Below are positions 8,276 through 20,032 of a stretch of 20,099 nucleotides of DNA, in pieces. The notes under the pieces are model-generated. The model worked only from the letters and a program-made list of their open reading frames with translations. It ran no database searches and had not been told where the DNA came from. Both the position numbers and the translations under genes were made by a program. Position 1 is the stretch's first letter. Each line of letters opens with the position of its first letter. This DNA comes from a virus: positions 1 through 20,099 of the IMG/VR virus record IMGVR_UViG_3300043773_001187. One strand, 5' to 3'.

Positions 8276-9007
8276 ATGGCTAATAGAATTATCAATACTG
8301 AAATTTGGGACGACCTATTGGAAGTTTCTATTGAAACAAGGCTATACTATATTTACCTATACACTAGTTGCAACCATGCAGGGCTAATAAAGCCACAGAA
8401 AGCAATTATAAGCGTGTATTGTGGTAAAGTTGATATAGTTGCCATTGAAAAGGAATTGAGCGATTGTGGTTTAATTAAAAGGATTGATAACGGCAAACTT
8501 TTTTTACCTCAATTCATTAAAGCTAATTATAGAGATTTAGGTAATAATAATTCAAACGCTGCTAAAAGTTGTATTGCATTGTTAGCAGAAAATGGTATTA
8601 ACTATTTAACCCTTAATGAAGGGTTGATGAAGGGTTCATTAACCCTTATAGAAATAGATAAAGAAAAGGATAAGGACATAGATAAAGAAAAGGAAAATAA
8701 AACAGCCGAAATAAATTATCAATTTCCTGACAACTTTACAGACGACCATAAAAAACTTTGGTTTCAATATGAGCAAGTACGGGAGTCAATACCTAAACCA
8801 CCTTACTCACAGGCCACAAGGCAATTAGCCATAAACGAATTTGTTAGTAGTGCTAGTTGCGACGCTAAAAAATATACTGAAGGATTAAAAGCAAGTATTC
8901 AAGGTGCATGGGTAACGCCAAAATGGTTTGCACCTAAACAAAATAAGTACACACCCGAACAACCAACCAAATCAAGTTACGACCGCAAATTTAAAGGCTA
9001 TGAATAA
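8276..9007 (+). CDS. Phage replication initiator / helicase-loader protein
   Basis: 243 aa. The N-terminal 90 residues (MANRIINTEIWDDLLEVSIETRLYYIYLYTSCNHAGLI..) are typical of winged-helix replisome organisers in phages, which open with a W-x-D/x-L segment followed by a ten-residue helix and an N-x-x-G-L. A very charged linker (about 126-143, KEKDKDIDKEKENK) joins a C-terminal domain (about 149-233) like those that bind the helicase. Its last 8 nt overlap the dnaB start, which supports helicase loading. The linker-coding DNA and the heptamers before it form a likely origin, as in lambda O. Homology is by pattern; the specific family is not determined. Confidence 0.7.
   Translation: MANRIINTEIWDDLLEVSIETRLYYIYLYTSCNHAGLIKPQKAIISVYCGKVDIVAIEKELSDCGLIKRIDNGKLFLPQFIKANYRDLGNNNSNAAKSCIALLAENGINYLTLNEGLMKGSLTLIEIDKEKDKDIDKEKENKTAEINYQFPDNFTDDHKKLWFQYEQVRESIPKPPYSQATRQLAINEFVSSASCDAKKYTEGLKASIQGAWVTPKWFAPKQNKYTPEQPTKSSYDRKFKGYE
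8608..8720. other. Candidate replication origin: four phased heptamers plus A-rich tract
   Basis: AACCCTT or its complement AAGGGTT occurs at 8608, 8619, 8630 and 8641, exactly 11 bp apart, in the orientation + - - +. Directly downstream lies about 70 bp of almost pure purine, A-rich top strand, containing a 17-bp direct repeat (8654-8670 and 8678-8694). Iterons followed by an A/T-rich, strand-biased tract inside the initiator gene is the layout of the lambda origin in gene O. Confidence 0.55.
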
Positions 9008-11348
9008 TCTTTACGAAAAGCAAGTATTGGGCGCAATAGTGCAAAGCGATGAAAGCCTACCCGACCTAATGGCAATGGTGCATGAAGATATGTTCAGCAC
9101 AAGCGAGTACAAAGACATCTTTAGAAGTGCTAAGTACCTATACGACAGCGGCAGACAAGTAAATATAATTAGCATACTGACCCACAATAAAAAGCATGAC
9201 ATAATGAAGCTAACCGACGTAAGCGGTTCAATAGCTTCAACTGCTCACATAATGGATTGTGCTAAAATATTAGTGCAGGAATTTATAAGGCATGAAATTG
9301 TTTCGTTAGCTGCAAAGATTAGCAACATGGCACTAGCGCAAGATGACGTATTTGACATTTTAAACTACACAGGCACGACCGCTGGCAACTTAGAGCAAAC
9401 CATAAGCCCATCAACTATTGAGCACGTTAGCACGATTGTAAAGGAACAAGCCCTAAAACGTGAAAAGGTTACGGATATGGCTGGCATACCTACGGGCTTT
9501 AGGGAATTAGATAAATTGTTAGGGGGGTTTGGCGATGAGTGGTTGATAATTTTGGCAGCAAGACCCGGCATGGGAAAGTGTCTAGGTAAAGGCACTAAGG
9601 TTATAATGTTTGATGGCTCAATTAAAAACGTGGAAGATGTAGTAGTAGGCGATAAGCTAATGGGCGATGACTCGACACCTAGAAACGTATTATCTTTAGC
9701 AAGGGGGCGTGAGGAAATGTATTGGGTTAAGCAAAATAAGGGCATAGATTATCGTGTAAATAAAAGCCATATTTTGTCTTTGAAAAAAAGTAGGTCAGAT
9801 GGCTACCGTAGCAAAGGTGAAGTGCTTAATATTTCGGTAAGTGATTATCTAAACAAGTCGGATAAATTTAAATCTAACTACAAAGGCTATAAAGTAGCCG
9901 TTGAATTTGAACAAAAGACAGTTGGCATTGACCCGTATTATTTAGGCTTATGGCTTGGTGATGGAACGACAGTAAACCAAAACATAACAAATACCGACAA
10001 CGAGATTATAGAATATTTACAGAAGTATGCAGGTGAAATAGGCGGCACATTATCAACTAAAATTTATGGTGACAAAGCACCAACGCATAAAATTTTGGGG
10101 TGTAAAATGCAACAAGGATTAAGACAGTTGGGCGTTTTAGGATTCAAACACATACCTAATGACTACTTGATAAATTCAACCGAAAACAGATTAAAGTTAT
10201 TGGCAGGCTTGCTAGATACTGATGGCTATTACGATAAGGCAGCTAATGTATTTGAGATAACGCAAACAAAAGAACACTTAGCGAAGCAAATTAAATACTT
10301 ATGTGATTCACTTGGCTTTAGAACTAATTATAAAAGTAAGATTGCTACAATCAAATCAACTGGCTTTAAAGGTGAGGTATTTAGATTGCAAATATCGGGT
10401 GACTTGCATTTAATACCTACATTGGTTGAGCGCAAAAAAGCTAGGATTGGAAGTAATCAAAAAGACAATAAGGTTACGGGCATTAAAGTTGAATACGACA
10501 AAGTAGATGATTATTATGGGTTTGAAATTGATGGCAATAGGTTATTTCTTTTAGAGGATATGACCGTAACGCATAACACCAGCCTAATGCTATCTTTTGC
10601 GTACTACATAGCTAAACAAGGCTATGCGGTGGATATTTATTCAATGGAAATGAGCAAAGGACAGTTAACAGATAATTTGATTAGTATGCATTGTGGTGTT
10701 CCGCTTTGGAAGATACAGCGCAATAAAATGGAGCACTACGAATTAGAGCAAGTAAAGCAAGCCGAAACATACATAGCAAGCCTACCAATACACATAGACG
10801 ACCAAGCCCGTATAAAAGGCAGACAGATACGCAGCCGTATTGTGATGGGTAAAAAGAAGCGAAATACAGCGATTGTAATGGTCGATTACATACAAATCAT
10901 GGGAGAGGAAGGCAAAGGTAACAGAGAGCAAGAGATAAGCAATATAACGGGTAATTTAAAGGCTGCAGCAAAGGAAGCCAAGATACCCGTAATAGCATTA
11001 GCGCAATTGAGCCGAGAAGTGGAAAAGCGAGCCGACAGACGACCCCAACTAAGCGATTTAAGGGAGTCGGGCGCAATAGAGCAAGATGCGGATATTATTA
11101 TGTTTCCTTTTCGGGCTTGGTACTACCACACTACAGGCGTGGCAGGGTTTGAGTATAACGATAAAAACGAAAGCACCGAAAATTTAGGCGAGTTGCTGAT
11201 AGCTAAAAACAGGCATGGTATAGTAGGTGATATTGAGGTAGGATGGGAAGGTAGTAAAAAGCTATTTTACGACAAAGAGCAGGATTTCGAAATAAAGCCA
11301 TTATCTAAAATGCAGCGACCGAGTGAAGATGATTTTGACGTATTTTAA
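9000..11348 (+). CDS. dnaB: Replicative DNA helicase DnaB, intein-containing
   Basis: 782 aa precursor, 449 aa after removal of a 333-aa intein (residues 194-526), a normal length for phage DnaB. The N-terminal domain starts MNNLYEKQVLGAIVQSDESLPDLM. The RecA-like domain carries Walker A (ARPGMGK before the intein, TSLML after), Walker B VMVDYIQIMG, and LAQLSREVEKRADRRPQLSDLRESGAIEQDAD. It unwinds DNA 5' to 3' as a hexamer ahead of the fork. ATG 9000 overlaps the initiator stop and gives the canonical DnaB start; an in-frame ATG at 8928 would add 24 residues translated from the other gene's frame. The helicase cannot bind ATP until the intein is spliced out. Confidence 0.95.
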   Translation: MNNLYEKQVLGAIVQSDESLPDLMAMVHEDMFSTSEYKDIFRSAKYLYDSGRQVNIISILTHNKKHDIMKLTDVSGSIASTAHIMDCAKILVQEFIRHEIVSLAAKISNMALAQDDVFDILNYTGTTAGNLEQTISPSTIEHVSTIVKEQALKREKVTDMAGIPTGFRELDKLLGGFGDEWLIILAARPGMGKCLGKGTKVIMFDGSIKNVEDVVVGDKLMGDDSTPRNVLSLARGREEMYWVKQNKGIDYRVNKSHILSLKKSRSDGYRSKGEVLNISVSDYLNKSDKFKSNYKGYKVAVEFEQKTVGIDPYYLGLWLGDGTTVNQNITNTDNEIIEYLQKYAGEIGGTLSTKIYGDKAPTHKILGCKMQQGLRQLGVLGFKHIPNDYLINSTENRLKLLAGLLDTDGYYDKAANVFEITQTKEHLAKQIKYLCDSLGFRTNYKSKIATIKSTGFKGEVFRLQISGDLHLIPTLVERKKARIGSNQKDNKVTGIKVEYDKVDDYYGFEIDGNRLFLLEDMTVTHNTSLMLSFAYYIAKQGYAVDIYSMEMSKGQLTDNLISMHCGVPLWKIQRNKMEHYELEQVKQAETYIASLPIHIDDQARIKGRQIRSRIVMGKKKRNTAIVMVDYIQIMGEEGKGNREQEISNITGNLKAAAKEAKIPVIALAQLSREVEKRADRRPQLSDLRESGAIEQDADIIMFPFRAWYYHTTGVAGFEYNDKNESTENLGELLIAKNRHGIVGDIEVGWEGSKKLFYDKEQDFEIKPLSKMQRPSEDDFDVF
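9579..10577 (+). mobile_element. Intein with LAGLIDADG homing endonuclease in the DnaB P-loop
   Basis: 333 aa, in frame, inserted between Lys and Thr of the GMGK/TS Walker A motif. It begins with the nucleophile Cys1 (CLGKGTKVIMFDGS) and ends in the block G sequence THN before extein Thr. Block B is NKSH (61-64), with His64 present but Asn where Thr is usual. Block F is DYYGFEIDGNRLFLLED (311-327). Both endonuclease motifs are intact: LGLWLGDGT (122-130, Asp128) and LLAGLLDTDG (207-216, Asp213/Asp215). It should splice itself out post-translationally and home into intein-free dnaB alleles. Confidence 0.95.
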
Positions 11349-13780: not shown

Positions 13781-13987
13781 ATGAAAGGCAAGATAATAAT
13801 AGTACCTATAACAACCGTACGGGGTGAAACCTTTTATCTAGTCTATAAAACGCTAAAAAAGGCTTGTATTGAGCACGGGGTGAGTTACCACAGCGCAACA
13901 AGTTACTTTAACGGAAACCCTAATAAGGATAGGTACTTCCATAAGAAAACAAACATTACCTTTGTAAAGACTGAATTAATATCATGA
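13781..13987 (+). CDS. Hypothetical protein between terS and terL (68 aa)
   Basis: Starts MKGKIIIVPITTVRGETFYLVYKTLKKACIEHGVSYHSATSYF. The segment TLKKACIEHGVSYHSATSYF (about 24-43) has the A-x-x-x-G-V-S spacing of a helix-turn-helix, so DNA binding is possible. It is basic, not otherwise recognised, and overlaps the terL start by 4 nt (ATGA). Confidence 0.6.
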   Translation: MKGKIIIVPITTVRGETFYLVYKTLKKACIEHGVSYHSATSYFNGNPNKDRYFHKKTNITFVKTELIS

Positions 13988-15271
13988 AACTATCAATGAA
14001 GCAAACCCGCGCCCTCGACCTTTTAGAAGACTTGGAAACATCCGAGATTCTATTTGGTGGGGGCGCGGGCTGAATAAAAAAAAGGTGGCGGCAAGTCAGT
14101 ACTAGGTTGTTATTGGATAACAAAGAGTGCGTTAAAGTACAAGGGCACTAGGTGGTTAATCGGCAGGGCAAAGTTAAAGACCCTAAAGGAAACCACGCTA
14201 AACACCTTATTTGAGGTATTCAAGATACAAGGCGTTACGACAGCCATGTACAACTACAATCAAACCAGCGGTATAATACAGTTCAGTAACGGCAGCGAGA
14301 TATTACTCAAAGACTTGTTTTACTATCCAAGCGACCCTAACTATGATGAGTTGGGTTCATTAGAGATAACAGGGGCGTTTATGGATGAAGCCAACCAAAT
14401 GGTAAAGAAAGCCAAAGAGGTGGTAAAGAGTAGGATAAGATACAAATTAGACGATTATGGATTAATACCTAAACTCTTAATGACTTGCAACCCGTCTAAA
14501 AATTGGATTTACAAAGACTTTTACAAGCCATACACGGCAAACGAGTTACGCAGCGATTGGGCGTTTGTACCTTCATTGGTGCATGATAACCCCGACATCA
14601 GTAAACACTACCTAGACAACCTACAAAACATACAAGACAAAGCCACACGGGAACGCTTACTAGGTAATTGGGAGTACGATATGAACCCGTCAAGGTTAAT
14701 GCCTTACGATGCTTGTGCTGACCTATTTACGAATATCCATGTATTAGGTGGCACGAAATACATAACAGCGGATATTGCACGGTTCGGCAAAGATAAGACC
14801 GTAATAATTGTTTGGGACGGTTACAAAGCTATTGAGGTGGTGACGTACAAGACTAACACGATAACCGAAGCCGCTGGAAGGATAACCGATTTGGCAAAAC
14901 AATACTTGATACCGATGAGCCAAGTAGTATGCGATGAGGATGGTATCGGTGGCGGTGTGGTGGATATGCTACGCTGCAAAGGCTTTATAGCCAACAAGAC
15001 TAGCACGAAGTATGCCAACGCAAAAGCAGAATGTTATTACCTACTTGCGGAAAAGGTAAATAAAAGCGAACTTTACATTAATTGCAGCGAAGCGGAAACG
15101 ATAATACAGGAACTGCAAGCGATTGAACGGGCTAACATTGACAAAGACACGAAACCAAGCATAAACAGCAAAGACAGTCAAAAGCAGATATTAGGTCGCA
15201 GCCCCGATTATGCCGATGCCTTAATGATGCGCTTTTGGTTTGAAACTAACACGTTACAAATTTACTACTAA
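13984..15271 (+). CDS. terL: Terminase large subunit, reading frame interrupted in Walker A
   Basis: The first 29 codons (13984-14070) end SEILFGGGAG and meet TGA at 14071. The rest continues in another frame from GGT 14084: GGGKSVLGCYWITKSALKYKG.. to the TAA at 15269-15271. Walker B is FMDEAN, motif III follows in LLMTCNPSKNW, and the RNase-H-like nuclease has YITADIARFGKDKT, VVCDEDGIGGG and SPDYADALMMRFW, so the remainder looks fully functional. Removing 16 nt (14071-14086) gives FGGGAGGGKS, a normal P-loop. No frame crosses the site: frame 1 has TGA 14071 and frame 2 has TAA 14075. Either the gene is recoded (translational bypass), inactivated, or the sequence has an error. A product from ATG 14246 alone would lack Walker A. 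Confidence 0.85.
14006..14089 (+). other. Possible recoding site: GC hairpin, stop codon and 13-16 nt gap in terL
   Basis: CCCGCGCCC (14006-14014) is perfectly complementary to GGGCGCGGG (14061-14069), and the stem can extend by TCG against TGG with wobble pairs. Its 3' arm ends inside codon GGC 14068-14070, which is followed by TGA. The insert TGAATAAAAAAAA then separates it from GGT GGC GGC AAG TCA. A Gly codon before a stop and a synonymous Gly codon at the landing site recall the hop in T4 gene 60. The stem uses GC-rich codons unlike the surrounding genes. Confidence 0.4.
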
Positions 15272-15873
15272 TGACACTACGACAGTACATAGAAGTAATG
15301 GATGCCTTAATAGGTGTGGACATAACAGAAGATATGACGGGAACGGATATGTTAGTGAGCTATCCTAAACAAGCGTATAAAGTGCTGTTAGCTTGCACGG
15401 ACATAACCGAAGCGGAACTACTAGCCAAACCCGTTACGGAGGTAGTAGGTATGCTCGAAATAGCCGTACAAGGGTTATACGTTCCCAAGCCTTACGAAGT
15501 GCCATTTATTGAGGTGAACGGCAAAACCTACACCGCTTGTGAGCCATTGTTAATGGATATGGGTAAAGTAAGAATACCGTACGGCAATATCGAATTTGGT
15601 AACTGTATTGAAGCCCTAACGATAATGGATAACACGACCCACACTCACAAGGCTATCCCAATGGTATTAGCATACTTGTACGAAGGTGAAGGACACGTTA
15701 CGGAAAAGGCAAACGAGTTTTTAGATATGGATGCGAGAGATGCGACTAGTGCGTTCTTTTTTTTTGCGAGGTTAGGGCGTGGATATACAACACATTTATC
15801 AAGCCAACTAGCGGAGATTACCGCACGGCAAAACATAAAGCGGCAGGGCAACGGGCAGGCGAGGACAAACTAG
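15271..15873 (+). CDS. Unknown phage protein, possible tail-assembly-chaperone-like, with frameshift site
   Basis: 200 aa in the zero frame. The central part (about 75-165) reads PFIEVNGKTYTACEPLL, then IPYGNIEFGNCIEAL, HKAIPMVLAYLYEGEG and DMDARDATSAFFFF, a pattern I associate with a Bacteroidota phage family of unproven, possibly chaperone, function. The ATG overlaps the terL stop (TAATG). The FFFF segment is encoded by nine consecutive T (15757-15765), a strong slippage sequence; downstream the -1 frame is open to 16043 with protein-like content, so a 257-aa product is expected as well. The zero-frame tail after FFFF may therefore be the minor or the aberrant form. Confidence 0.6.
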   Translation: MTLRQYIEVMDALIGVDITEDMTGTDMLVSYPKQAYKVLLACTDITEAELLAKPVTEVVGMLEIAVQGLYVPKPYEVPFIEVNGKTYTACEPLLMDMGKVRIPYGNIEFGNCIEALTIMDNTTHTHKAIPMVLAYLYEGEGHVTEKANEFLDMDARDATSAFFFFARLGRGYTTHLSSQLAEITARQNIKRQGNGQARTN

Positions 15874-16043
15874 CCCCGTTTGGGTGGTATGCTACGTTAA
15901 GGGAAGCAAGCCCCGACATAAGCAAGGATAGCCTAGTAAAAGCATTACCAGTGCATGAAGTGTTTGCATACATAATGCACAAGCGCATGAGTGGCAAAGT
16001 TGAATACAAGATGCAAATTTACATGAGTGAAGTTGCTAAGTAG
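15765..16043 (+). CDS. -1 frame extension of the preceding gene (92 codons, no start of its own)
   Basis: The frame is open from 15750 to TAG 16041-16043 and has no ATG, GTG or TTG near its beginning. It reads CEVRAWIYNTFIKPTSGDYR at the shift and later APFGWYATLREASPDISKDSLVKALPVHEVFAYIMHKRMSGKVEYKMQIYMSEVAK, which is clearly protein-like and runs 170 nt past the zero-frame stop (15871-15873) through an otherwise gene-free stretch. Entry is by -1 slippage on T9: 165 aa plus 92 aa. Alternatives are a missing T in the sequence or transcriptional slippage. Confidence 0.6.
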   Translation, partial: CEVRAWIYNTFIKPTSGDYRTAKHKAAGQRAGEDKLAPFGWYATLREASPDISKDSLVKALPVHEVFAYIMHKRMSGKVEYKMQIYMSEVAK

Positions 16044-16594: not shown

Positions 16595-17281
16595 GTGATA
16601 CCAAAAATACTTTTAGGCGCACCGATTAACCAACGCAAGGCATACGTACTTGACGAATGGTTATCGTTCATTAGAACGCTTACCTATCCTAATTTGCACG
16701 TTATACTAGTGGATAACAGCAACGACCCTAAATGGCACAAGACAATAAAGGGTTTTGATGTACGTAGAGTTGAGCCTAAAGGCAGACCCGAAGCATACAT
16801 AGCAGCATCACAAGAACTAATAAGAGAGTACGCACTAGCTAATGGGTTTGATTATCTGTTTAGTTTGGAGTGTGATAACTTTTGCCCACAAGACACCATT
16901 GAACGGTTGCTAGTTTACCGTACCGATAACATTAACGTGCCGTACTTCTTGAAGGAAGGATTAAGTACCACCGTTGGCGTTCAGTTGATGGGTATTAACC
17001 AAGCTACTTACAGGCGGTTTGATGTACCACCCCCCGAAAGCTGCATAGGGTTCTTTGATGGCAAACTAAAGACGGGCGTACCTTCAATCGGGTGTAGCCT
17101 GTTTAGCCGTGAACTACTTACAAAAGTAAAGTTTAGGCACGACCCAAACCAGCTAGGTAAATTTAGCGATAGTTGGTTTCACCTTGACAGCATGAGGGCA
17201 GGCATAACCCCCATAATAGTAACCGATATAATTTCAACACATAAACGCAACCCACAATGGAGTACGATAAGGAACAACTAG
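16595..17281 (+). CDS. Glycosyltransferase, GT-A-like
   Basis: 228 aa. The N-terminus MIPKILLGAPINQRKAYVLDEWLSFIRTLTYPNLHVILVDNSND is a nucleotide-sugar-binding Rossmann-like start with the V-D-N-S motif of GT2-type enzymes. FDYLFSLECDNFCP (85-98) holds an E-C-D-N variant of the metal-binding D-x-D. DSWFHLDSMRAGITPIIV near 190-208 is the usual acceptor-side region. GTG 16595 is the start used, as no ATG lies near the conserved beginning. It probably transfers a sugar to a phage or host glycan; donor and acceptor cannot be inferred. It overlaps the next gene by 25 nt. Confidence 0.7.
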   Translation: MIPKILLGAPINQRKAYVLDEWLSFIRTLTYPNLHVILVDNSNDPKWHKTIKGFDVRRVEPKGRPEAYIAASQELIREYALANGFDYLFSLECDNFCPQDTIERLLVYRTDNINVPYFLKEGLSTTVGVQLMGINQATYRRFDVPPPESCIGFFDGKLKTGVPSIGCSLFSRELLTKVKFRHDPNQLGKFSDSWFHLDSMRAGITPIIVTDIISTHKRNPQWSTIRNN

Positions 17282-17703
17282 AACAAGCATGGCAGGAACG
17301 CCTTGAACGTGAGCACGAATACCTAACGCTAATCGAAGGGTATCGCAACGCAAAGCAAAAGGCATTGGATAAAGCCGAACCCGATAGCGTGGAATACTGG
17401 CAATTGTCTATTGAGATATTTGACCTAGACACGAATATCAAAACCAAAGAGCATTATATCGAAAGCATGAAGTCCGATAAGGCGCAACAACAAGCGTTTC
17501 AAGATGCCAAGATGCAATTTATCGAAACCCATTCAACAGACATACTGAAAAAAGCAAGGGTATGTATAGACCGCAAATCTGACAGGGCAACCGTATTGGA
17601 AGGCTTGACAAAGGATATGCCACAACGTGAAACAAACGAATGGTATGCAAGGATTTGGGAGATTAACGAGCACGTAAACGCTGCTAAAGTACCTAACGCT
17701 TAA
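17257..17703 (+). CDS. Coiled-coil protein of unknown function
   Basis: 148 aa, almost entirely helical and highly charged: EYDKEQLEQAWQERLEREHEYLTLIEGYRNAKQKALDKAEP, then EIFDLDTNIKTKEHYIESMKSDKAQQQAF. No membrane segment or enzyme motif. It lies between glycosyltransferase genes and overlaps the first one. Scaffold-like or structural roles are possible but not supported by homology. Confidence 0.65.
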   Translation: MEYDKEQLEQAWQERLEREHEYLTLIEGYRNAKQKALDKAEPDSVEYWQLSIEIFDLDTNIKTKEHYIESMKSDKAQQQAFQDAKMQFIETHSTDILKKARVCIDRKSDRATVLEGLTKDMPQRETNEWYARIWEINEHVNAAKVPNA

Positions 17704-17713
17704 TAACTAACTT

Positions 17714-18133
17714 ATGAAACTAACAAGTAAAGAGCATGACTTTGTTAATGATGTACGTATTCTTATTGAGCGTGGCACTACATCAATAACCATGAAACAA
17801 TGTTATATGAATGGCAGTGATGCAATGGAAATATTAAAAGAGCACTTAGGTATAGATGTTTGGTTTTCGGGGGTAAAGCCACCATTTGAACCAGTAATTT
17901 ACACCATTGAAACGGTATTTAATGAGCGATACATTTTTGAATTGTCAAAAGAAAAATGCCATATCTTAACCCCGAAACCTTTTGAGTTGTTAATGTATAG
18001 CTACCCATTAGATGTATCAGTTGAAGCTATAAATCAGCAGTTTCAAAATGCTTTAGTAAATTACAAATGCTACCAAAAAAACGGCTCTAAAAATATTAAG
18101 CCGTGGTACAAAAGGCTATTTATATGCGAATAA
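17714..18133 (+). CDS. Hypothetical protein (139 aa)
   Basis: Starts MKLTSKEHDFVNDVRILIE, with ITMKQCYMNGSDAMEILKEHLGIDVWFSG (about 25-53) and a basic C-terminus IKPWYKRLFICE. Not recognised. Its composition is richer in Phe, Tyr and Lys than its neighbours, and the DNA is more A/T-rich in this stretch, so a separate origin is possible. It ends 10 nt inside the next gene. Confidence 0.6.
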   Translation: MKLTSKEHDFVNDVRILIERGTTSITMKQCYMNGSDAMEILKEHLGIDVWFSGVKPPFEPVIYTIETVFNERYIFELSKEKCHILTPKPFELLMYSYPLDVSVEAINQQFQNALVNYKCYQKNGSKNIKPWYKRLFICE

Positions 18134-18795
18134 CACTAATACACCCCAGCCGTAACCGCCCCGAAATGGCGCACGCTAACTATCTAAACTGGTTAGCTAA
18201 AAGCGAAGCACACAACAGCGGTAACTCAAAGATAACCATTGAACATATTCTATCATTAGACTTAGACGAGCCGAGATACGATGGCTATGTACGGTTATTT
18301 GGGGCGCATCACATAGTGAGAGAAAATACAAGCGATGGGTATGTAGTGGGTGCGACTAATGCAGCGGCACAATACGCCACAGGCGATATACTGATTTACC
18401 TTAGTGATGACTTCGATTGCCCTAAACATTGGGATAGGTTGATAGTTGACAGGCTAAACGGGCTTACAATGGCAGGATTAGAGGTGAGTGATGCCTACCA
18501 AACAAATCGCAACCTATTGACTATACCGATTATCACAAGGGATTTATACGATAAGTGGGGGTTCTTTTGGCATCCCGATTTTAAGAGTATGTTTTGTGAT
18601 AACTTTATGTTTGAGCAAATAAAACGAGAGGGTATAATAGTTGATGCAATGGATTTAGTATTTGAGCACAAGCACCATTCAAGAGGCTTAATGGTTAAAG
18701 ACGAAACAAACAGCCGTAGCGAAGCCGAATATAACAACGGGCGGTTGATATTTAATAAACTATCAAAGGCATTAGGGTGGAACTGTCAATATTAA
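18124..18795 (+). CDS. Glycosyltransferase family 2-like protein
   Basis: 223 aa. MRITLIHPSRNRPEMAHANYLNWLAKS opens a GT2-type fold (the I-P-S-R-x-R-P motif), VVGATNAAAQYATGDILIYLSDDFDCPKHWD (74-104) carries the nucleotide-sugar site and the SDDFD metal-binding motif, and FWHPDFKSMFCDNFMFEQIKREG (about 152-174) is the acceptor region with catalytic acidic residues. ATG 18124 is preferred to 18103 because it gives the family's usual beginning. Cytoplasmic, no membrane helices. Acceptor unknown. Confidence 0.75.
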   Translation: MRITLIHPSRNRPEMAHANYLNWLAKSEAHNSGNSKITIEHILSLDLDEPRYDGYVRLFGAHHIVRENTSDGYVVGATNAAAQYATGDILIYLSDDFDCPKHWDRLIVDRLNGLTMAGLEVSDAYQTNRNLLTIPIITRDLYDKWGFFWHPDFKSMFCDNFMFEQIKREGIIVDAMDLVFEHKHHSRGLMVKDETNSRSEAEYNNGRLIFNKLSKALGWNCQY

Positions 18796-19364
18796 TACCA
18801 ACGGTCGTAGAGCGTAAATATAGGTTTTATCCGTTGTATGCTAACTTACTGCAACAAGCTAAAGATAAGCCCGTAGAAGTGCTTTATTTAAGCGATAACA
18901 AAGAATTACCGATAGGTACTAAACGCCAACAGTTACTAGAAATGGCACAAGGGCGATTTATTGTTTTCTTTGACGATGACGACACGCCAGCGAATAACTA
19001 CGTGGACTTAATACTTCAAGCTATTACAGAGCCTTTAGTTGATTGTGTAGGCATTCGGGTTAAGATGACCACCAACGGGAATAATCCACAAATATGCTTG
19101 CATAGGTTTAAACACCCGATGGCAGAAGGTATGGCAGCAGCTAAGTACGGAGTTGACTATGTAAGACCGATAACGCATTTTAACCCCGTGCTAAGAGTTA
19201 AAGCATTACAGGCAGGATTTGGGAATGAAAGGTTTGGAGAAGATGCAGCGTATTGGTCAAGAGTTAACCCATTACTAAGCTGCGAGTATTACATACCCGA
19301 AATACTATTTGATTACAACTATTCTAATTTGCAGCCACATAATCAAAAGTACGGTATAAAATGA
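18777..19364 (+). CDS. Glycosyltransferase family 2
   Basis: 195 aa. MELSILIPTVVERKYRFYPL, PVEVLYLSDNKELPIGTKRQQLLEMAQGRFIVFFDDDD (32-69) and FGEDAAYWSRVNPLLSCEYYIPEILFDYNY (about 152-183) are the classic GT2 blocks: donor-binding start, Lys/Arg-rich loop, D-D-D-D metal motif, and the ED catalytic site followed by an aromatic end. GTG 18777 overlaps the preceding gene by 19 nt. Small size suggests a single catalytic domain. Confidence 0.85.
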   Translation: MELSILIPTVVERKYRFYPLYANLLQQAKDKPVEVLYLSDNKELPIGTKRQQLLEMAQGRFIVFFDDDDTPANNYVDLILQAITEPLVDCVGIRVKMTTNGNNPQICLHRFKHPMAEGMAAAKYGVDYVRPITHFNPVLRVKALQAGFGNERFGEDAAYWSRVNPLLSCEYYIPEILFDYNYSNLQPHNQKYGIK

Positions 19365-20032
19365 GCAATCCGATAATAATAACAGTAGCACTAGGCAAGT
19401 GGTATCCTAAAGGACAATCAAGGCTAATACGGTCTTTATTTGAGCACGGTTGGACTAGTATAAAAGGTTGGGTTAATAGTTACCCGGTAGATGGGTATAA
19501 TGAAGATAACCCATACACTTGTAAGGCGGCTGCATTTGAAGCCATAATAGACAAAGGGCATGATGTGGTATTGTGGTGTGATAGTTCAATTTATGCCATT
19601 CAAGACATTACCCCGTTAATGAAGTTGATAAATGAAAAGGGCTATTTCTTTTGGGGCAGTGGCGAGAATTGCGCCCAAACGGTTAGCGATAAGTGTTTAA
19701 AGTATTTCGGGCTAACTAGAGATGAAGCCGAACTAATACCCGAATGCGCAACATCTGTTTTTGGTGTTAACCTGAATACCGAAATAGGGCGTAAATTTGC
19801 GGAACGGTTTATACAGGCAACGCACGAGGGCGCAGCCGATGGCAGTAGGCAACACGCAAGGCAATCTAAAGACCCCCGATTTAAGTACCACAGGCAAGAC
19901 CAAAGCGTTGCAAGCCTAATAATGAACGAACTAGGTATGGAATTAGAGCAAACCCGTTACGTTGGCTATAAAGCCTATTTAAATGATTACGAAAATATTG
20001 ATTATATTTGTTTACTAAACGAAGGAATGTAA
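19361..20032 (+). CDS. Glycosyltransferase-like protein (GT-A, D-x-S type)
   Basis: 223 aa. The start MSNPIIITVALGKWYPKGQSRLIRSL, the segment HDVVLWCDSSIYAIQDITPLMKLI (67-90), EKGYFFWGSG and the C-terminal YHRQDQSVASLIMNELGMELE (about 176-196) match a group of phage and bacterial proteins resembling galactosyl/mannosyl transferases in which W-C-D-S-S or W-L-D-A replaces D-x-D and a D-Q-S-V-x-S motif lies near the end. It overlaps the previous gene by 4 nt (ATGA). Function as a transferase is inferred from these motifs. Confidence 0.65.
   Translation: MSNPIIITVALGKWYPKGQSRLIRSLFEHGWTSIKGWVNSYPVDGYNEDNPYTCKAAAFEAIIDKGHDVVLWCDSSIYAIQDITPLMKLINEKGYFFWGSGENCAQTVSDKCLKYFGLTRDEAELIPECATSVFGVNLNTEIGRKFAERFIQATHEGAADGSRQHARQSKDPRFKYHRQDQSVASLIMNELGMELEQTRYVGYKAYLNDYENIDYICLLNEGM

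Follow-up and report, generated by a model that had tools for sequence, protein, structure and literature searches.

A putative tail assembly chaperone gene of Bacteroidota-type phages with a conserved run of nine or ten T and its second domain in the -1 frame

Tail assembly chaperones of the G/GT type are described from phage lambda, where gpG and gpGT come from one gene through a -1 ribosomal frameshift, and many analogues are reported (Xu, Hendrix and Duda 2004, as cited in PMC5009743). Few recoding events of tailed phages are as widespread as the G/GT frameshift. The cases covered in the review are ribosomal (PMC5009743). On the transcriptional side, bacterial RNA polymerase slips with high efficiency where nine A or T follow one another, and slippage at runs of nine is described for Thermus thermophilus dnaX, Shigella mxiE, and type III secretion genes (PMC5009743). 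The literature retrieved among open-licence papers comprised reviews, prediction tools, and unrelated work and describes no tail chaperone made by transcriptional slippage, which is not proof of absence.

Here, we compare these systems with a gene located directly after the terminase large subunit gene (terL) on a linear virus contig from IMG/VR (20,099 bases), the whole of which is called the window below. The best explanation for this locus would be a G/GT chaperone pair made through transcriptional slippage on a run of nine T (T9), to which we give a probability of about 0.62.

The ATG of the gene overlaps the 3' end of terL by 1 nt. The zero-frame ORF (15271-15873) encodes 200 aa and stops at a TAG at 15871-15873. 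The run lies in the context TTC TTT TTT TTT GCG, and its length is exactly nine because TTC stands directly before it. The -1 frame is open from 15750 to 16043 and encodes an ordinary-looking protein (CVLFFCEVRAWIYNTFIKPT...MSEVAK). In the in-silico translation, re-reading one T or adding one U joins 165 aa to 92 aa in a fusion of 257 aa. Across the tabulated members, a stop is reached in the +1 frame after 0-8 codons. Given the early TAG in the +1 frame of the window (Table 1), U8 or U11 transcripts would stop within a few codons and yield a truncated product.

Table 1. Features of the putative chaperone gene and its upstream neighbour in the window
Feature	Coordinates	Strand	Evidence
terL, upstream neighbour of the putative chaperone gene	13984..15271	+	PHROG terminase large subunit, E 8.3e-22
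G-like domain, 165 aa, ends SAFFFF, common to both predicted products	15271..15765	+	Profile homology to Nonlabens-phage family, hhalign E 4.2e-9
T9 slippery run	15757..15765	+	Run of T9 or T10 at this position in all homologues
T-like domain, 92 aa + stop, -1 frame, GWY motif	15765..16043	+	-1-frame third-position bias
Zero-frame tail of the unshifted product (200 aa), 35 aa + TAG	15766..15873	+	Without conservation as protein
TAG closing the +1 frame three codons past the run	15773..15775	+	+1 frame closes early in all tabulated members

The T count proved sound, since the same run is found across independent assemblies and isolated phages. A protein-pattern search retrieved seven IMG/VR relatives (the window group), six with 94-96% amino-acid identity and one with 67%, all presenting exactly T9 in the same context. 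Protein patterns of a second, Nonlabens-type group, which ignore the T run, retrieved 21 further loci with 26-96% identity to the query. All 21 present T9 or T10 at the junction, with the downstream domain encoded in the -1 frame. The run is thus T9 or T10 in 28 of 28 homologues found by protein patterns, as well as in L039 and L040, retrieved by DNA pattern, and in the isolated phage P12024S, with identity among homologues falling to about 11-20%. A scan for TTYT9GCGAR also matched the diverged proteins L039 and L060, which present about 160 aa ending in FFFF, then T9, then an open -1 frame of 84-105 aa. L040 keeps T9 and shows apparent single-base frame breaks elsewhere in its chaperone gene and terL, which are probably sequencing errors.

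Four forms of the run occur in the family: T9 in register 0 or 1, and T10 in register 1 or 2. In about eight diverged lineages its length is always 9-10, never below nine, and all three codon registers are represented. The first-pass annotation had expected ten T to mean a plain continuous gene, and this expectation failed: in T10 members the run stands in a different codon register, and once more the -1 frame encodes the downstream domain.

These observations bear on two alternatives. A sequencing or assembly error would hide a truly continuous frame with T10; homopolymers are error-prone, and terL on this contig shows a second suspicious frame break. However, the seven other assemblies of the window group and the isolates P12024S and P12024L all have T9, and members with T10, in other registers, always need the same -1 shift, so that the conservation of the run excludes such an error for practical purposes. 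Phase variation by replication slippage would make the run length differ between virions, with T9 as the off state and T10 as the on state. Runs of 9-10 are mutable in general, which fits this explanation, but no in-frame run length appeared in about 30 contigs from different samples and the isolated phage, and the T10 members are again out of frame. We therefore regard phase variation as very unlikely.

Isolated phages with the same arrangement were reached from L060, which led by tblastn to the Nonlabens (Persicivirga) phages P12024S and P12024L (Inhavirus). As in the window, their homologous gene lies right after terL and combines T9 with an open -1 frame. In P12024S, gene 38 directly follows terL, has T9, and continues into gene 39 in the -1 frame; P12024L has T9 too. 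Despite this likeness, the T9 of P12024S is in codon register 1 (register 0 in the window), and its fusion would have 231 aa instead of 257 aa. In the P12024S record (L119, JQ823122, 23136-23830), P12024S_38 and P12024S_39 are annotated as two separate hypothetical proteins and look like one T9-shifted gene. PHROGs likewise splits the Nonlabens-type proteins into two unknown families, 32199 and 38404.

Taken at face value, the GenBank entry for P12024S_39 as its own gene and the two PHROGs families would speak for two separate proteins, with the downstream ORF started independently. We find this highly improbable, since the -1 frame of the window lacks ATG, GTG, and TTG from T9 up to its last third, and selection reaches right up to the T run. 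In profile comparison, hhalign aligned the window group with the Nonlabens-type group over residues 38-243, across the junction (probability 96; E-value in Table 1), and L039 joins the same profile (E 8.5e-26). Motifs common to the family are an N-terminal ITLxQY, an IxGxEYG segment, FF at the slip site, and KWGWY in the second domain, to which the GWY of the window corresponds. Homologues align with the entire 257-aa fusion rather than with the 200-aa form.

The post-terL gene of Bacteroides phage BT47P1 encodes 212 aa in one frame without a clear profile match, and was not counted as a relative; the BT47P1 genome has no T run of eight or more. The N-terminal domain of the window had no match in the phage collection, and no relative was found among prophages in the genome contigs scanned.

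Selection separates the two overlapping frames. Among the five closest sequences, variable sites within the overlap fall on codon positions 1/2/3 as 2/0/15 when read in the -1 frame vs. 0/15/2 when read in the zero frame; only the -1 frame is therefore constrained as protein. Purifying selection acts on the -1 frame from the T run onwards, and the zero-frame tail, 16-52 codons long across the family, is free of it. The first-pass annotation had described the -1 frame as open, protein-coding, and without a start codon of its own, and both the frame reading, with no start codon near the slip site, and the codon-position bias bear this out. Its proposed shift into -1 at T9, giving 165 + 92 aa, also gains support from the conserved run, the selected -1 frame, and the homologues.

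Judging from sequence and gene order, the gene at 15271-16043 is very likely a tail assembly chaperone of the G/GT type, and the host of this siphophage probably belongs to Bacteroidota. The slip run, the selected -1 frame, and the junction-spanning homology are together the sequence signature of two products from one gene, and a tail-gene neighbourhood with a second domain in the -1 frame is the mark of G/GT chaperones. The two-domain -1 layout and the tail-operon synteny agree with the tail-assembly-chaperone identity guessed initially. As in lambda gpG/gpGT, one gene would give a short and an extended form through a -1 change near the end of the first domain, and the two-domain layout and the tail-gene neighbourhood are shared. 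In contrast to lambda and its analogues, the window family has a T9/T10 homopolymer with no stimulator found. It also differs from lambda in its zero-frame tail, in a position adjoining terL instead of between tail tube and tape measure, and in lacking a detectable match to a chaperone family model.

In Pfam, PHROG, and NCBIfam, no chaperone model reached the cut-off, and Phage_TAC_7 matched at E 0.01 only, for three relatives. Tail chaperone families have low sequence similarity to each other. The structure model of the N-terminal domain was partly confident (mean pLDDT 62), and that of the C-terminal domain was poor. In a weak fold search with the N-terminal model, the best viral matches were unnamed phage proteins, with two "tail assembly chaperone" entries lower down at poor E-values; the search against PDB gave no match.

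In the relatives, the gene stands after terL and ahead of the connector, neck, and tail genes. In L079 the order is terL, chaperone gene, connector, neck protein (phrog_29822), likely tail tube, and large tail protein, and in L039 it is terL, chaperone gene, and neck. In P12024S, the gene lies between terL and a connector plus neck/tail-completion protein (phrog_29822/phrog_5 in L079 and P12024S), with a tape-measure match further downstream. The L079 genes past the chaperone gene are collinear with those preceding the tape measure gene in G003, a relative of the window, with a BLAST match for each (weak for the tail-tube pair); the tape measure protein of G003 has a PHROG match at E 1.2e-6. 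A 645-aa protein adjoining the gene in L096 is tape-measure-like but has no PHROG match, so it was not used as evidence. The position right after terL had been called unusual by the first-pass annotation; the position is correct, but it is the usual place in this family (terL - chaperone - connector - neck - tail tube).

The window lineage departs from this order by having a glycosyltransferase cassette inserted ahead of the tail block. In the window itself, a cassette with glycosyltransferases occupies 16595-20032, between the chaperone gene and the contig end; in relatives it separates the chaperone gene from the tail block.

Which machine slips is a separate matter. We consider RNA polymerase slippage, from U9 to U10, to be the probable event, based on comparison of the sites: the run is never shorter than nine, its length and not its register is kept, and no consistent hairpin or Shine-Dalgarno-like element accompanies it. 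In programmed ribosomal -1 frameshifting, two tRNA-Phe would slip together on U_UUU_UUU, as in lambda G/GT; products and function would be unchanged, and the slipping machine alone would differ. We see this as possible, although rather unlikely. The U_UUU_UUU heptamer is in register at every member's site, and the tail-chaperone shifts in the review are ribosomal (PMC5009743). However, seven T would be enough for the ribosome, yet the run has 9-10 in all registers across the diverged lineages, and a consistent stimulatory hairpin or Shine-Dalgarno-like element is missing. No consistent downstream RNA structure was found in 13 members (z between -2.1 and +1.3), nor any Shine-Dalgarno-like stimulator consistent across the members examined; in L082 and L077, purine-rich sequence occurs 9-12 nt upstream. 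For ribosomal -1 frameshifting, a downstream structure or Shine-Dalgarno-like stimulator is usual, not obligatory.

Of three relative genomes checked, two (30 kb and 47 kb) contain no A/T run of at least nine other than the slip site. A caveat to the slippage reading is that T runs arise more readily in any case where Phe residues are conserved and codon usage is rich in TTT; Phe codons are 152 TTT vs. 30 TTC. The bacterial slippage cases described above resemble the window in having a homopolymer within the gene and two protein forms without a ribosomal signal. Nevertheless, the Thermus and Shigella cases are cellular genes, whereas the window has a phage tail-assembly gene in which slippage is proposed. 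Thus, of the "-1 frameshift" proposed initially, the change into the -1 frame stands, and the slipping machine is probably RNA polymerase, not the ribosome.

With RNA polymerase slippage, most transcripts would carry U9 and give the 200-aa form (G), with a corresponding ratio of products. Some transcripts would gain one U when RNA polymerase slips on T9, and ordinary translation of these U10 transcripts would give the 257-aa fusion (GT). If the parallel with lambda holds, the N-terminal domain present in both forms would coat the tape measure protein, and recruitment of tail-tube subunits would fall to the C-terminal domain. We lean towards the view that the whole Bacteroidota-phage lineage may set its G:GT ratio in this way, by RNA polymerase slippage on T9-T10 with the ribosome uninvolved.

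The window presents other features upstream. At 14068-14083, 16 nt (GGCTGAATAAAAAAAA) interrupt terL within the Walker A motif, near the gene start, and hold an in-frame TGA plus a TAA in +1. In L007, L110 (on the L040 contig), L111, and L112, terL reads FGGGAGGGKS and lacks this insertion, and the pattern matches L113-L115 leave no room for it. Either misassembly or a defective gene copy most likely accounts for it. Gly codons before the stop and after the gap would weakly fit a bypass like that of T4 gene 60, in a motif that is Gly-rich. The terL genes of the window and L007 are of the FGGGAGGGKS type, and those of L002-L006 and L008 are GGRGSGKS-like. Two terL types ahead of chaperone genes that are 94-96% identical in amino acids suggest a possible exchange of terL at the terL/chaperone boundary. 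Further upstream, at 8976-11348, an apparent intein with LAGLIDADG-like motifs splits the P-loop of a DnaB-like replicative helicase (GMGK|CLGKGTKV...HN|TSLML).

At the family level, these genes are best read as a chaperone family of Bacteroidota-type phages, unrecognised in Pfam and PHROGs. This would give a name to a tail chaperone family stored as two unknown pieces, PHROG 32199 and 38404. It also provides an annotation rule: T9-T10 near the end of a small ORF beside terL, with the -1 frame open. Since gene callers cut the fusion in two, this rule could annotate many such phages.

If transcriptional slippage is true, it would be a replacement for the textbook ribosomal frameshift of lambda, in parallel with dnaX, which uses frameshifting in some bacteria and slippage in others. 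The selected trait would then be the product ratio, and not the machine that produces it.
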